Under the pieces are notes generated by a model. It did no database searches, was not told the DNA's origin, and was given only the letters and a program-made list of their open reading frames with translations. Shown piece after piece: positions 11,795 through 19,158 of a stretch of DNA of 64,000 nt. This DNA is from a virus. Each line of letters opens with the position of its first letter. Position 1 is the stretch's first letter. The position numbers were made by a program, and so were the translations under genes. The stretch is taken from IMG/VR virus record IMGVR_UViG_3300044691_000347, positions 1 through 64,000 of that record. One strand, written 5' to 3'.

Positions 11795-12085
11795 TCGGTA
11801 GTAGCGCCGGGGGTCTTCTCACCCTGTTGTCTTGGCCCTAGTTTTGGTCTCCGATCTTACCTCGGAATCGACTACTACCGAAAGTGCGGTGACGAGTGGC
11901 TGCCGTAGCTACACCACACGCCGTGAAGGCTGTCGCGCCGAAGCGGGAGAACCTTCTACGGTTACCGCAAGCAAAGCCCCAATGTTGATATCAGAGTTGG
12001 GGTTACTCTGGGCCGTCACCGCCAGGTGATTCCGTGAAATACGGAAGGACAGTCAAACCCGCTGCCAGAGGCGACGGACCATATG
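11795..12085 (-). ncRNA. Candidate structured RNA with pseudoknot
   Basis: No credible gene lies here. Elements: a 10-bp closing stem (11795-11804 with 11872-11881) enclosing a TCCGA/TCGGA hairpin with 7-base loop (11850-11866) and GGGT/ACCC (11811-11824); a 6-bp hairpin (11992-11997 with 12005-12010) whose loop can pair with 11977-11981, giving a pseudoknot; TCACC/GGTGA (12016-12029); TTCCGT/ACGGAA (12030-12046). It begins at the 3' end of the Thr tRNA, so it would be in the same transcript. Confidence 0.5.
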
Positions 12086-12157
12086 AGCTTCCACCAGGAC
12101 TCGGACCCGGCACTCTTGTTTACTAGACAAGTGCTTTACCAGATAAGCTATGGAAGC
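12086..12157 (-). tRNA. tRNA-Thr (AGT)
   Basis: Complete cloverleaf: acceptor GCTTCCA/TGGAAGC, D-stem GCTT/AAGC, anticodon stem CTTGT/ACAAG with loop CTAGTAA, T-arm CCGGG-TCCGAGT-CCTGG, discriminator T. Position 34 is A, rare in bacterial Thr tRNAs. Confidence 0.85.
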
Positions 12158-12439: not shown

Positions 12440-12440
12440 G

Positions 12441-12524
12441 CGGAAGTTTGATGAGTCGAACACCCGGGTTTTACCCCGCCTCTGGCTTTCAAGGCCAGCT
12501 GCCGACCACTCGGCGGAAACTTCC
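12441..12524 (-). tRNA. tRNA-Ser (TGA)
   Basis: Acceptor GGAAGTT/AACTTCC, D-arm GCCGAGTGGTCGGC, anticodon stem CTGGC/GCCAG with loop CTTGAAA, long variable arm containing GGGTAAAACCC, discriminator G. The T-stem has one mismatch. Confidence 0.9.
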
Positions 12525-12532
12525 AGACGCAC

Positions 12533-12579
12533 CTAGCGGCCGGGACTGGAACCCGGGAAACCATTGCCACACTCGCTAG
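12533..12579 (-). other. tRNA-like minihelix (acceptor plus T-arm only)
   Basis: A 7-base acceptor-like pairing (CTAGCGA with CCGCTAG, one mismatch) and a perfect T-arm (CCGGG-TTCCAGT-CCCGG), with only about 12 bases where D and anticodon arms should be. It is flanked closely by the Met and Ser tRNAs. Either a decayed tRNA or a deliberate tRNA mimic. Confidence 0.35.
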
Positions 12580-12601
12580 ATGCTGGTGCACCGTGGCTAC
12601 G

Positions 12602-12675
12602 TTGCGATGGCAGGATTTGAACCTGCGACCTAGAGCTTATGAGGCTCCCGAGCTACCGAACTGCTCCACATCGCA
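12602..12675 (-). tRNA. tRNA-Met (CAT)
   Basis: All stems intact: acceptor TGCGATG/CATCGCA, D-arm GAGC/GCTC, anticodon stem GGAGC/GCTCT with loop CTCATAA, T-arm GCAGG-TTCAAAT-CCTGC, discriminator A. Absence of the GGG/CCC anticodon stem argues against an initiator; a CAT anticodon could also be Ile after lysidine modification. Confidence 0.9.
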
Positions 12676-13131
12676 CTGAGGCCCTTGATAACGGAGGTCT
12701 GCAACTCCGGTCCACCGTCTTTCGGTCCCAGCGCATAGCGTGGACTGTAGGGCACGGCAGTCATGCGTTTTAACACCTGAGCCTTGCGGCTACCGCCTTA
12801 CCGTGTATTTCGGCCCCACATGCGCGGCAGGGAATGTTAGCCCCTGCTGCCCCGACGACTCTCCGTCGCCGGGCCGCGCAAGTTTAAAAGGTGGGCGGCT
12901 TACTAGGCCAATCGACCGGAGGACGAACACTTAGTCATGTAAGTTGATCCGGTGCCACAACACTTTGTCCGCTAAGACTGGAAAGCCTCGGGCCGCTAAG
13001 CCTTCGGTGGATAGTGGTTCCTCAGCACTCGCCGTTGGTTCCACTTCATTCCCGTTGTGCACATTTCAGCCCGCGTTCCCGGTAGGCTGAACACTCTGTC
13101 ACCACCAGCGCGAGCCGCTAAACCCGCGCTT
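12676..13131 (-). ncRNA. Candidate large structured RNA between tRNAs
   Basis: About 455 bases without a credible gene. Helices, in transcript order: 13125-13130/13107-13112; 13085-13091/13065-13071 (7 bp); 12948-12953/12915-12920 enclosing 12940-12944/12929-12933; a 60-base three-way junction at 12821-12880 (outer 7 bp, arms of 9 bp and 5 bp, all paired); directly abutting it an 8-bp stem 12813-12820/12746-12753 continued by 12799-12804/12754-12759 and a GCAA tetraloop hairpin at 12780-12791; then 12714-12726 and 12692-12709. The motif TTAGCGG recurs three times. Size and tRNA context recall GOLLD or ROOL RNAs. Confidence 0.5.
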
Positions 13132-13133
13132 TG

Positions 13134-13204
13134 CTCCCCATCCGCGAGTCGAACGCGGACGTAGCCTTTTATATCGGGCAGCTCTACCGTTGAGCTAATG
13201 AGGA
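13134..13204 (-). tRNA. tRNA with degenerate anticodon arm
   Basis: Acceptor TCCTCAT/ATGGGGA (one G-T), D-arm AGCTC/GAGCT and T-arm CCGCG-TTCGACT-CGCGG are perfect, but between them GCCCGATATAAAAGGC allows only three anticodon-stem pairs, so the anticodon cannot be read with confidence. It is the first RNA of the cluster in transcription order. Confidence 0.65.
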
Positions 13205-15722: not shown

Positions 15723-16342
15723 GCAGCCTCACTCCAGCTGTGCACGCCGAGAACGCCAGCGATATCCGGGGGCGTCCAACCGTTCGGCTTCATCACCTTG
15801 CCGTCAGGGCGTCGAATAGCGATGCCGCCCACCAACTTCGCAAGGTTCGAGCGTTGCACCTCATCCCACACTGCCTGCAAAGGAAGCCCGAGCATGTAGC
15901 CGACGCCAGCGACGCCGTACATTGCGTCATGGATGGCGTTGTCGATGCGGATGAGGTTCCGGTCGTGTGCAGCGTCGAGGATGCAAGCGTGTGCGGACTC
16001 CAAATCCTCACGCACCGACCGGATGTCCTCGCCGGTGAGCGCGGTGAAACCGATCGTGATCCCGTGGATCGGCGCCTTCAGGAAGTCGGTAACGAATCGG
16101 CGCGCGACACCCAGACGGAGAGCGAGACCAGCGAGAACGTAGAGACTGTCGGCCACAGCGTCGGCAGTCTCTACGATGTCCCGGACCTCCAGCGCGGAGT
16201 CCAACTCGCTCAACTCTTCCGCAACCAGGCTCAATGCAAGCTGAAGTTCATCATCGGGCACCCAACCGGGCACAAGCCGCATGCGCACATCGCAGGCGCG
16301 GCTGAAGGTCTCAACGTCCAGCCACAGATTAGAAGTCATCAT
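15719..16342 (-). CDS. MazG-like / phosphoribosyl-ATP pyrophosphohydrolase-like
   Basis: 207 residues. All-alpha NTP-PPase features: VAEELSELDSALEVRDIVET, then ADAVADSLYVLAG in the first half gives the EExxE and ExxD metal sites. The C-terminal half repeats the fold (IHDAMYGVAGVGYMLG) and ends with NLAKLVGG and KVMKPNGWTPPD. It would hydrolyse (d)NTPs or a related nucleotide. The start overlaps the kinase stop. Confidence 0.7.
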   Translation of the reverse strand: MMTSNLWLDVETFSRACDVRMRLVPGWVPDDELQLALSLVAEELSELDSALEVRDIVETADAVADSLYVLAGLALRLGVARRFVTDFLKAPIHGITIGFTALTGEDIRSVREDLESAHACILDAAHDRNLIRIDNAIHDAMYGVAGVGYMLGLPLQAVWDEVQRSNLAKLVGGIAIRRPDGKVMKPNGWTPPDIAGVLGVHSWSEAA

Positions 16343-17282
16343 GGTCGGGAATCCCCAATCTCATCAGCGGCACGCCAAGACGAGCCCACATTCTTGCCAC
16401 ACTCAGTCGATCATCGAAAACCCCGAGAATCCGGTAGCGGCACCGGATCTGCTGGTCAAAGATGCCGTACTTGACCGTGTAATCCGGTCGCTTATCCCCC
16501 GTGACCCGCATGTGGATCTCATCGAACGGGATGCCGTTGGCACGCAACCATGCCGCGGTCACGTCCTTGCAGGCGTCATCCCTGCCGCTCAAAATTACGA
16601 TCGCCGAATCGGCGGCCAACTTTCGCACCACTTCCACCGTGTGAGCGATCGGGATATCCTCATGCACGCGCGTGTAGTCGTAGATACCGCGAGTCGGGGA
16701 CTTCGTTGCGAGCGTCCCATCAACGTCGACCAGCCATGCCGGCGGAAGGGCTTCATCGGGCACATACGGATCTGGGTAGAAAAACAGATCTGGTGACGGT
16801 TCGACCTTCGGCCAGTTCTTGCGCGGGAACCGTCTGGCGAGCGCCCGAATCGCGTCCTCTCCGACCGTCCTGCCACCAGCTTCACCGCGGGCTTTGTCGC
16901 GGGCTACGCAAACGTCTACGGGAGTGTCGAGGTAGATCGATTCTACGTCGGCGCCGTTCAAGGCCGCTATGTTTGCCCAGCCGCGTGTCCACTGTGCGCG
17001 CAGGTTCATTGCGTCGACGAAGACGTCGAATCCGGCGTCGATGAGCGTTTTCGCCTGTGCCCGTTCGGCTTTAGTGATCACTTGCTCTTGATCGTTCGGG
17101 AGCCGTCCGTGTGCACCGAACAGGGTTACCCGTAAATCGTCACGGGACACGCGAGCAAGCAACGGGTTGGTGGCACGCATCTGCTCGAATAGGCTGGTTT
17201 TTCCTGCTCCAGGCCAACCGATCGGCACATACACTTTCGGGCGACGTGGCGCGTCCACGACTGCCAGTTTCTCGATGCTCAT
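16329..17282 (-). CDS. pnkp: Polynucleotide 5'-kinase / 3'-phosphatase (T4 Pnk type)
   Basis: 317 residues. N-terminal kinase: P-loop GWPGAGKTSLF near 22-32 and lid residues around RDKARGEAGGR. C-terminal HAD phosphatase: LVDVDGTLA near 187, LSGRDD near 232 and a DDR near 290. This is the order of T4 Pnk, which heals 2',3'-cyclic phosphate and 5'-OH ends in cut tRNA before ligation. The RNA ligase lies two genes upstream in the same operon. Confidence 0.9.
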   Translation of the reverse strand: MSIEKLAVVDAPRRPKVYVPIGWPGAGKTSLFEQMRATNPLLARVSRDDLRVTLFGAHGRLPNDQEQVITKAERAQAKTLIDAGFDVFVDAMNLRAQWTRGWANIAALNGADVESIYLDTPVDVCVARDKARGEAGGRTVGEDAIRALARRFPRKNWPKVEPSPDLFFYPDPYVPDEALPPAWLVDVDGTLATKSPTRGIYDYTRVHEDIPIAHTVEVVRKLAADSAIVILSGRDDACKDVTAAWLRANGIPFDEIHMRVTGDKRPDYTVKYGIFDQQIRCRYRILGVFDDRLSVARMWARLGVPLMRLGIPDHDDF

Positions 17283-17896
17283 GCCGATACCACCTCATCG
17301 CGGTTGAAAACGAACTTCTGATAGACGCTCCGGTTGGTGGCACGCATCCGAACGGAGATCCTGTCTCCATGGCGCATTAGGTCCCCGCGGAACGCCCCGT
17401 AGAGCGGCAACGCTGCCGCCACACGGGCCGCTACAGCCACGGCGAACGCTTCGTCGACCTCTCCCCCCAGTTTCATTTCCAAACGTTCTGGGGTGGCTGT
17501 GAGGCGCGCATACTTGTTGCTGCCCCCATAGATGAGCTGCACTTCGGCTGGTGCGCCACTTCGGTCCGGCATCCCATCCGGTTCACGTTCATACAGTTCG
17601 GCTCGGTTGCCTGGATAGGCCGCCCAGCTCAGGTTTTCGCGGCGATCGTTCGACAAGTCTCCATCGGCGTGGATTACATCGACATCACTCGGCATCCAGC
17701 CCAGGAACGCCACCGCTACAAGCCGATCAACGCGAACAACTGAGCGGACACCGTTCTTCACCAAGACGACGTAATTTCGCCCTGCTGCGTGCCCTGGACG
17801 TTGAGGTACCGGCAAACCAGCGCTGCGCACGCTGCCGTGGTCGGATACCTCGCATCCGGGCTCACAACCGGAGATTCGACGCCACTCTTCGGTCAC
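17279..17896 (-). CDS. NUMOD4/HNH-type protein
   Basis: 205 residues. The start EWRRISGCEPGCEVSDHGSV is a NUMOD4 motif; VIHADGDLSNDRRENLSW resembles the HNH core HxNGDxxDNRxxNL with the second key residues altered (DGDLSND). The C-terminal 90 residues are unassigned. Either a homing endonuclease that entered between the two repair genes or one domesticated there. Confidence 0.65.
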   Translation of the reverse strand: MTEEWRRISGCEPGCEVSDHGSVRSAGLPVPQRPGHAAGRNYVVLVKNGVRSVVRVDRLVAVAFLGWMPSDVDVIHADGDLSNDRRENLSWAAYPGNRAELYEREPDGMPDRSGAPAEVQLIYGGSNKYARLTATPERLEMKLGGEVDEAFAVAVAARVAAALPLYGAFRGDLMRHGDRISVRMRATNRSVYQKFVFNRDEVVSA

Positions 17897-19158
17897 GCAG
17901 CCTCCCCCAGCGATTCGAGGTCGACTTTACCCTTGTCCAACTGTTTGGTCTCGAAAGCGAAGAACGCTGGAGCCTTCGCCTTCGAGAAGTGCGGGGCGAT
18001 GCCCTCCACGCGTACAACAACGCCTTCGTCCACGGTCTTTCCAGGTTCGAGCGGGATGGCGTGCAGATAGCCTTCGTCGCGGTAGCGTTTGTCGAGCCAG
18101 TCTGCGACGGCGAAGTCGGAATGCAGCCCAGTCCACAGTTCCGGGACGTGCTTCAGTCCGCGGTCGCGGCAGAACTCTTTGACGGCTTCCCAAGACAGGT
18201 CGACCGCTATTCCTTGACCGTTCACGACAGCAACGCGGTAGATGTACAGTTCGGCGTCGCCCCTGGGGATGCAATACGTGTAACCGGTCTGTAATGCTGC
18301 ACCGTCCTGCGACCAGCCGACGAGTTCACCGTACACGATGTAGTTTTCGGGAAGCATGCCGTCGAGCCGTTTGCCGTAGTGGGTCCACACGTCGGATTCG
18401 TAGTGATGCTGTTGGCCCTTGTTGTTGGCGTCCTTCACTACTCGACGACTCGCATACACGTAGTCGTGTTCGGTGGTTGCCACCTTGACACCGAACTTGC
18501 GTGCGATTCGGTCGCGGATCGGCAGTGCTCGCGCAACGGTGGTGTGCCCCACGCGGATTGAGGTTCCGTGCAACTTCTGGGTGCAGAGGATGCGAGCATC
18601 CGCGGGGATCTGCGCGGAGACCCGGAAATAGTTGTCGGTCGAAAAATGTTCCGGCATGAACTTTTTGTCGACGCGCGTGAACTTGGCCTTGTTCTTCTCT
18701 GTCAGCGAAGCGCCGTTGCCCTTGACCATGACCTCATATTTGGAGCAAATCGGGTGCCCGTTCAATGTGTCGAATGTGTCGCCGACCTTCAAGTCGTCAA
18801 CGTCGACGCCCGTGAAGGCAAGCGATGCCAACGGCATGAACAGGGCATCTGACCGGTGTCCACGCAGCTTTATGGCACGCACACGTCGGTTGTCACCCAA
18901 GTAGCCCTTGGCGTCGGGTGTGGCATTCAGGTGGGCATGCGCGTGGAGGTCGTTGACCCGCGCGTACTCGTCGCTGAGCTGTGTCTCCGCAGTGAAAACC
19001 ACGCCGACGGTTCCTTGTGCCGTGTCTTTGCCCACGATCGCCTGAAAACCAAGCGCCTGTACACCAACGATGTTGTCGCAGCCATGTAGCTCGTTCGGCG
19101 CGGGGAGCGCTACGACGACGGCGCTGTAATTCGGGTTTGCTGGAGTAGTCAACTTCAT
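17893..19158 (-). CDS. RNA ligase (nucleotidyltransferase superfamily)
   Basis: 421 residues. Motif I TQKLHGTSIR near 195 (Lys nucleophile), VYGELVGW near 277, DEGVVVRVEG near 381, and AFFAFETKQL at the end. The first 180 residues form an extra N-terminal domain, as in DraRnl/Rnl5-like ligases, where an OB-fold precedes the catalytic domain. It would seal RNA ends prepared by the kinase-phosphatase. A TACGATA-type operator lies just before its ATG. Confidence 0.85.
   Translation of the reverse strand: MKLTTPANPNYSAVVVALPAPNELHGCDNIVGVQALGFQAIVGKDTAQGTVGVVFTAETQLSDEYARVNDLHAHAHLNATPDAKGYLGDNRRVRAIKLRGHRSDALFMPLASLAFTGVDVDDLKVGDTFDTLNGHPICSKYEVMVKGNGASLTEKNKAKFTRVDKKFMPEHFSTDNYFRVSAQIPADARILCTQKLHGTSIRVGHTTVARALPIRDRIARKFGVKVATTEHDYVYASRRVVKDANNKGQQHHYESDVWTHYGKRLDGMLPENYIVYGELVGWSQDGAALQTGYTYCIPRGDAELYIYRVAVVNGQGIAVDLSWEAVKEFCRDRGLKHVPELWTGLHSDFAVADWLDKRYRDEGYLHAIPLEPGKTVDEGVVVRVEGIAPHFSKAKAPAFFAFETKQLDKGKVDLESLGEAA

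Follow-up and report, generated by a model that had tools for sequence, protein, structure and literature searches.

A conserved structured RNA, designated element A, lies on the minus strand at positions 13133 to 12890 of the window, the 64,000-nt stretch of DNA analysed here, which was taken from a virus record of 91,377 bp; its existence is virtually certain. It directly follows a tRNA-like structure (TLS) in a phage tRNA cluster, recurs behind tRNAs or TLSs in other phages with a covarying secondary structure, and is non-coding. Most probably, element A represents a new class of phage RNA; it is likely to be released from a tRNA transcript and may then act in trans as a scaffold or sponge. 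The first-pass annotation had proposed one ornate RNA of 455 bases. A structured RNA was indeed found, but not with the strand, the borders and most of the helices named there. Instead of a single molecule, the stretch harbors an RNA of about 241 nt (13133-12890), a second one of 60 nt (12880-12821, element B) and about 145 nt for which support was not obtained. Of the local features noted there, the 60-nt junction and the three TTAGCGG copies, as loops, were recovered; the other local helices are not the conserved ones; the 5' neighbour of element A, at 13204-13134, was located outside the coordinates considered.

The surrounding phage tRNA cluster was confirmed by four ARAGORN calls, all on the minus strand (12085-12157, 12440-12524, 12601-12675, and 13133-13204), and tmRNA features, described as absent from the stretch, were detected neither by ARAGORN nor by Rfam. 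Genes for a polynucleotide kinase-phosphatase and an RNA ligase are located near the cluster (16329-17282 and 17893-19158, both minus), as expected for a tRNA-repair, anti-nuclease module. The closest terminase relatives of the window phage belong to Nocardia prophages and phage-plasmids, more distant ones to 85-93-kb plasmids of Rhodococcus, Prescottella, and Streptomyces. Scans for promoters and terminators were uninformative. When the whole 457 nt were folded as one molecule, energies were at the level of dinucleotide shuffles (z = -0.87 for the minus and -0.41 for the plus strand). That nearly every part of the stretch can pair, as pointed out earlier, has therefore no weight by itself; folding energy alone does not support an RNA here, and support comes from comparative data.

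Relatives were identified by blastn searches of the stretch against loci fetched via the terminase and via the sequence GGTGGTGACAGAGTG. Window positions 13159-12878 (minus strand) matched a viral contig, L096, with 82% identity, and the element A unit was also detected in L003, L085, L104, L106, L111, L124, L126, L127, L128, and L165. More members were found on the 92-kb plasmid plas1 of Prescottella equi (L125) and in L100, L123, L220, L234, L238, and L250. A covariance model, R1, was built from 11 members and run on the fetched loci and genomes. It assigned 94 to 195 bits to 18 full members, termed type I, 76 bits to L238, and 36 to 50 bits to shorter, type II members. The type II members were recruited by a sequence pattern and are regarded as kin on the basis of P0, P2, P3, P8, and the loops; they include the cultured mycobacteriophages DyoEdafos, Chaser, Bromden, Aegeus, and Baudelaire, in which no annotated feature underlies the match. 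In Aegeus, element A occupies almost all of the 204 nt that separate tRNA-Ile from tRNA-Pro. In total, about 25 distinct relatives were obtained from Nocardia prophages and phage-plasmids, the P. equi plasmid, metagenomic phages, and mycobacteriophages, among them cluster L-type phages (Lclasvirinae).

Each of 15 whole records searched with the model (E <= 0.001) contained exactly one copy. Element A was present in seven of 150 Nocardia genomes, and 401 genomes of the wider Nocardia family yielded two strong matches. Weak matches of 17 to 23 bits in the latter survey were attributed to chance, those open to inspection being devoid of the conserved motifs, and matches of about 76 nt at 31 bits in L093, L109, L115, and L122 were likewise judged to have arisen by chance around the search pattern. 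No copy was detected in eight other tRNA-bearing phages or in four other phage-plasmids (one from R. rhodochrous, three from Streptomyces); close relatives of the window phage (L002, L129, and L131) lack one. Element A is therefore an accessory of certain mobile elements and not a host gene. DNA searches of 50,697 phage records with the window copy matched only tRNA genes, and a search with the L003 copy retrieved nothing real; with type II copies, the five named mycobacteriophages were matched.

In 5' to 3' direction, the tRNA or TLS with its discriminator base is followed by CAA, P1, the 5' strand of P0, TGACAGAGTG, P2, AATGTG, the 5' strand of P3, two small hairpins that are missing from some members, P5, a linker, P6, the 3' strand of P3, GC, the P7 helix, the P8 hairpin, and the 3' strand of P0. 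From P1 to P0 the RNA measures 241 nt in the window and usually 211 to 218 nt in its relatives. The features of the stretch, all on the minus strand, are the following.

13134 to 13204, minus: TLS with acceptor, T-arm, D-arm, and degenerate anticodon arm, directly 5' of element A
12890 to 13133, minus: element A, CAA linker plus P1-P0[P2-P3[(P4)-P5-P6]-P7-P8]; covariance-model match of 142.5 bits, the sole one in the 91-kb record
13107 to 13130, minus: P1 hairpin, 8 bp, loop TTTAGCGG
13102 to 13106, minus: P0 5' strand, GGTGG, closing the RNA by pairing with 12894-12890
13092 to 13101, minus: near-invariant single strand, TGACAGAGTG
13066 to 13090, minus: P2 hairpin, 6 bp, strong covariation
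13060 to 13065, minus: invariant AATGTG
13054 to 13059, minus: P3 5' strand, CACAAC, pairs across about 90 nt with 12961-12956
12991 to 13002, minus: P5 hairpin, TTAGCG loop
12967 to 12978, minus: P6 hairpin, TTAGCG loop
12956 to 12961, minus: P3 3' strand, GTTGTG
12915 to 12953, minus: P7 helix, ACCGGA/TCCGGT with inner ACTT/AAGT stem
12895 to 12911, minus: P8 hairpin, CTAGTAA loop
12890 to 12894, minus: P0 3' strand, CCACC
12821 to 12880, minus: element B, separate 60-nt three-way-junction RNA, z = -4.19
12533 to 12579, minus: possible second TLS without anticodon arm, 47 nt, acceptor and T-arm only; weak

The long-range helices vary in sequence while remaining paired: P0 occurs as GGTGG/CCACC, GGTAG/CTACC (L125), GGCAG/CTGCC (L220), and TGTGG/CCACA, and P3 as TGCGAC/GTCGCA, CACAAC/GTTGTG, and CATGAC/GTCATG. 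The loop of P8 reads CTAGKAA in most members. In type I members (e.g. L106, L127, and L165), the CCACC of P0 is followed by a conserved tail of about 12 nt, mostly ending in TAACTT or TAAACTT, which is possibly the true 3' end of element A.

The first-pass annotation had named covariation among related phages and coding conservation as the observations that should decide on its proposal. Covariation was found. In a model alignment of 25 sequences, standard pairs occupy 97.4% of 735 cells, and changes on both sides are seen in 30 of the 33 pairs, values that lean towards the structure because the alignment was fitted to it and the structure was partly picked by eye. With the partner slid by one to three columns as a control, 39 to 49% of the cells were standard and 7 to 10 pairs had double changes. 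RNAalifold, applied to a plain MAFFT alignment of 14 sequences with no structure given, recovered P2, P3, P5, and P7, and 30 of its 52 predicted pairs carry double changes. In a hand alignment of 18 sequences, pairing is near-complete in every helix. When this hand alignment was compared with a permutation null built on a tree, as in R-scape, only two column pairs of the whole alignment reached E < 0.05, both in P8, and no significant pair was at odds with the structure. With the tests restricted to the 42 proposed pairs (E x 42/22155), 15 pairs pass in seven helices (P1, P2, P3, P5, P6, P7, and P8), a count that is partly circular, the structure having been chosen with the alignment in view. 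The P1 stem is wholly different in the close relatives DyoEdafos (CATCGGA/TCCGGTG) and Chaser (ACGTTAG/CTTAACGT), and pairing as well as the loop motif CCGTACA are kept in both despite this change. Coding conservation is absent. Stops interrupt all three sense-strand frames in each of the 18 relatives and insertions/deletions are not multiples of three; a protein-coding reading was therefore rejected. On the antisense strand, an open frame was seen in only two single cases among these relatives.

The TLS upstream of element A resembles a tRNA in part. Its acceptor strands TCCTCAT/ATGGGGA pair at 7 of 7 positions and its T-arm, CCGCG-TTCGACT-CGCGG, at 5 of 5, but the anticodon arm is malformed, GCCCG-ATATAAA-AGGCT pairing at only 3 of 5 positions, i.e. 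as GCC/GGC with a 10-nt loop. ARAGORN names this structure tRNA-Tyr(ata), and with the Rfam tRNA model it stays below threshold. Of the features of a functional tRNA, it has the acceptor and the T-arm with a TTCRA loop but not the anticodon stem of 5 bp with a 7-nt loop. The 28 nt that precede CAA consist, in each of the 18 type I members, of a T-arm, a 7-nt acceptor strand, and A or G as discriminator base. The T-arm is paired at 5 of 5 positions in 17 of them as scored, L234 being off by one base in the register of the script. The automatic search for the 5' acceptor strand mispaired many rows; on manual reading, the acceptor is paired at 7 of 7 positions in most members, for example TCCTCGA/TCGAGGA in L127, TCTCCGG/CCGGAGA in L104, and TCCGAAT/ATTCGGA in L111. 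The anticodon region is regular in L125 (tRNA-Lys) and in L100 and L111 (both tRNA-Asn). Elsewhere it is malformed, with 4-bp stems and GACG loops in L096, L104, and L165, and most Nocardia-type members have a malformed anticodon arm. Retention of acceptor stem and T-arm together with loss of the anticodon arm is in keeping with a role in processing and not in decoding, and the TLS is likely to serve as a processing signal that has lost its decoding function. The possible second TLS (12579-12533) matched the Rfam family mascRNA-menRNA with 19.6 bits, below the cut-off of 42.5 (E 0.8), and its single-sequence fold was not significant.

The motif TTAGCGG, noticed three times in the initial inspection, is present on the minus strand at 12969-12975, 12993-12999, and 13115-13121, which correspond to the loops of P6, P5, and P1 in the conserved model. 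Among relatives, the loops read TTAGCG, TCAGCG, GTAGCT, or CTAGCG, and TAAGCG, TTGGCG, or TTGGCA in type II members. What they have in common is a tetraloop, in most cases YAGC, with a wobble or comparable pair at its base. Since the same loop is present three times in a single RNA, it might be a docking site in multiple copies, a guess based on the repetition.

Element B is a separate RNA. The 60-base three-way junction recognized earlier at 12821-12880 is real; it folds on the minus strand with -37 kcal/mol, an energy that none of 200 shuffles reached. Relatives were found in two other phages, at L002:5471-5530, where element B fills the gap between tRNA-Trp and tRNA-Met, and at L106:6379-6324, where it follows element A as in the window. 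The three sequences share 90% mean identity, leaving little room for covariation analysis. For the helix suggested at 12746-12820, neither strand gave a significant fold (z = -1.32 and 0.05), and the searched loci contained no relatives of it. A tRNA reading of the same segment was rejected, as the ends are acceptor-like but a T-arm is missing. For the whole of 12820-12676, about 145 nt, there is no folding-energy signal and there are no relatives among the searched loci. A conserved intergenic stretch of about 230 nt, unlike element A, is present in the tRNA clusters of L002 (5583-5808) and L126 (5265-5494) with 85% identity; it is possibly a third RNA.

Element A is presumably co-transcribed with the phage tRNA cluster, and host tRNA-processing enzymes would most likely release it as a discrete stable RNA. 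The upstream tRNA or TLS would set the 5' border by a cut after the discriminator base, making CAA-P1 the 5' end, while the following tRNA or exonuclease trimming would set the 3' border near P0. The RNA folds into a closed, multi-branched body, in which P0 encloses P2, P3, P7, and P8 and the P1 hairpin is stacked on the outside; it displays P1, P5, and P6 as repeated hairpins with (U/G)-[YAGC]-(G/U) loops. These loops may dock a protein or another copy of the RNA, so that, in the course of infection, element A would serve in trans as a scaffold or sponge. Judged from the sequences, cutting of element A from the tRNA transcript at the TLS is likely; action in trans through the repeated loops is a more tentative proposal, which may well turn out to be wrong. 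Rather doubtful is the further idea of a two-module class, in which a non-decoding tRNA mimic is kept only as the cutting signal for host tRNA-processing enzymes, a three-loop body captures a host or phage protein, or further copies of itself, during infection, and element B is a second product made in the same way.

Element A could also be a cis-acting leader or spacer tuning processing or stability of the tRNA transcript, with no free RNA being formed. Its constant presence in tRNA clusters, abutting a tRNA or TLS in all 18 type I members, is consistent with such a role, and it could protect the 3' side of the tRNA or pace RNase processing. However, different phages have different tRNAs at the upstream position, and these frequently do not decode, which leaves no constant tRNA for element A to serve. 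Element A also exceeds its neighbours in conservation and is much longer than a spacer would have to be. A purely cis-acting element is therefore unlikely.

Even less probably, element A could be an ornate RNA like GOLLD or ROOL, complete or truncated to a single domain, that assembles from RNA alone. The setting is alike, since both of these structured RNAs are found in phages near tRNA islands (PMC12286853; PMC9569102): GOLLD, a homo-oligomeric RNA nanocage, is borne by phages and prophages, occurs in phage tRNA islands (PMC12286853), and is reported from Mycobacterium tRNA arrays (PMC9569102), and element A resides in the same kind of location. Yet the Rfam searches suggested in the first-pass annotation, including GOLLD, returned no family and speak for a new class. 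Scans with all families at gathering score, performed on the window and 10 other loci, gave no match to element A; only tRNAs and, elsewhere in the arrays, tmRNA and abiF RNA were reported, and permissive scans of the window element (E <= 10) revealed chance-level matches only. The abiF RNA matches are located in mycobacteriophage tRNA arrays at L252:4194-4230 (DyoEdafos) and L255:4174-4210 (Bromden). With the GOLLD model RF02032, nothing was retrieved at E <= 10 from the 14 element A carriers searched, and for ROOL, the all-family scans gave no match in the window or in the other loci. Moreover, element A comprises 211 to 244 nt compared with 600 to 850 nt for GOLLD and about 580 to 660 nt for ROOL, and its helices and motifs differ. 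Membership in these classes is refuted.

A Y-RNA-like partner of Ro60/Rsr of the YrlA type, using a TLS without anticodon arm, was also considered. As in YrlA and bacterial Y RNAs, where tRNA mimicry is joined with another structured domain, a non-decoding tRNA-like module is found beside a structured RNA, and two of 15 phage records with element A, those of L003 and L231, also encode a TROVE (Ro60) protein (Ro60-like genes at G158:49328-49561 and G161:6632-7645). Two carriers are too few for an obligate partner; the remaining 13 records, including that of the window, are without TROVE, though a host protein could stand in. Rfam holds Y-RNA-like families and none of them matched, and the tRNA-like part lies outside the closed RNA, not inside. 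A Y-RNA-like role is thus improbable.

Several carriers are phage-plasmids, such as the 92-kb P. equi plasmid, and cluster A mycobacteriophages lacking RepA require a non-coding RNA for replication, encoded beside parABS (PMC7157519). By analogy, element A might be a ColE1-like initiator RNA at an RNA-based prophage replication origin. This is very improbable, since it lies in tRNA clusters, whereas the cluster A RNAs adjoin parABS, and it is also found in Lclasvirinae, a group for which integration at a chromosomal attB has been reported (PMC10865867), but not in close relatives of the window phage. Degenerate tRNA remnants folding by chance, with no RNA of their own, would agree with the damaged tRNA-like pieces in the cluster and with single-sequence folding at the level of shuffled sequences, and this probably holds for 12820-12676, but for 13133-12890 it is refuted by the compensatory pairs, the near-invariant single strands, and the fixed architecture in distant phages.

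To our knowledge, phages have yielded very few classes of large structured RNAs, and GOLLD and ROOL, the most familiar of them, have no assigned function. Element A adds a smaller class, unrelated to these two, with a well supported secondary structure. Its carriers include cultured, genetically tractable mycobacteriophages of M. smegmatis (DyoEdafos, Bromden, Chaser) and M. chelonae (Aegeus, Baudelaire), and deletion, probing, and pull-down experiments are therefore feasible. The findings also suggest that phage tRNA clusters may also serve to produce RNAs of other kinds, tRNA mimics without an anticodon marking the sites to be cut. Some of the unusual or degenerate tRNA genes in such clusters would thereby be explained. 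A description of element A was not found in the open-access literature; subscription papers and preprints were mostly outside the scope of this search, so that an earlier report is possible.

Among known systems, mascRNA and menRNA, the 3' modules of MALAT1 and MEN-beta, show the same combination of a TLS without proper anticodon arm and a non-coding RNA, and their TLS is thought to act as processing signal. There, however, the long RNA is located 5' of the TLS, here 3', and the two are not akin. Like element A, tmRNA is a structured RNA with a tRNA-like part found in phage tRNA arrays, but here the tRNA-like part is complete on the 5' side alone, and neither ARAGORN nor Rfam detected tmRNA at element A; the carrier of L231 has a separate tmRNA in addition. 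With no match to Rfam or GOLLD and few TROVE carriers, element A is filed as a new RNA class, which it is by sequence and structure, while it shares its habitat with GOLLD and ROOL.
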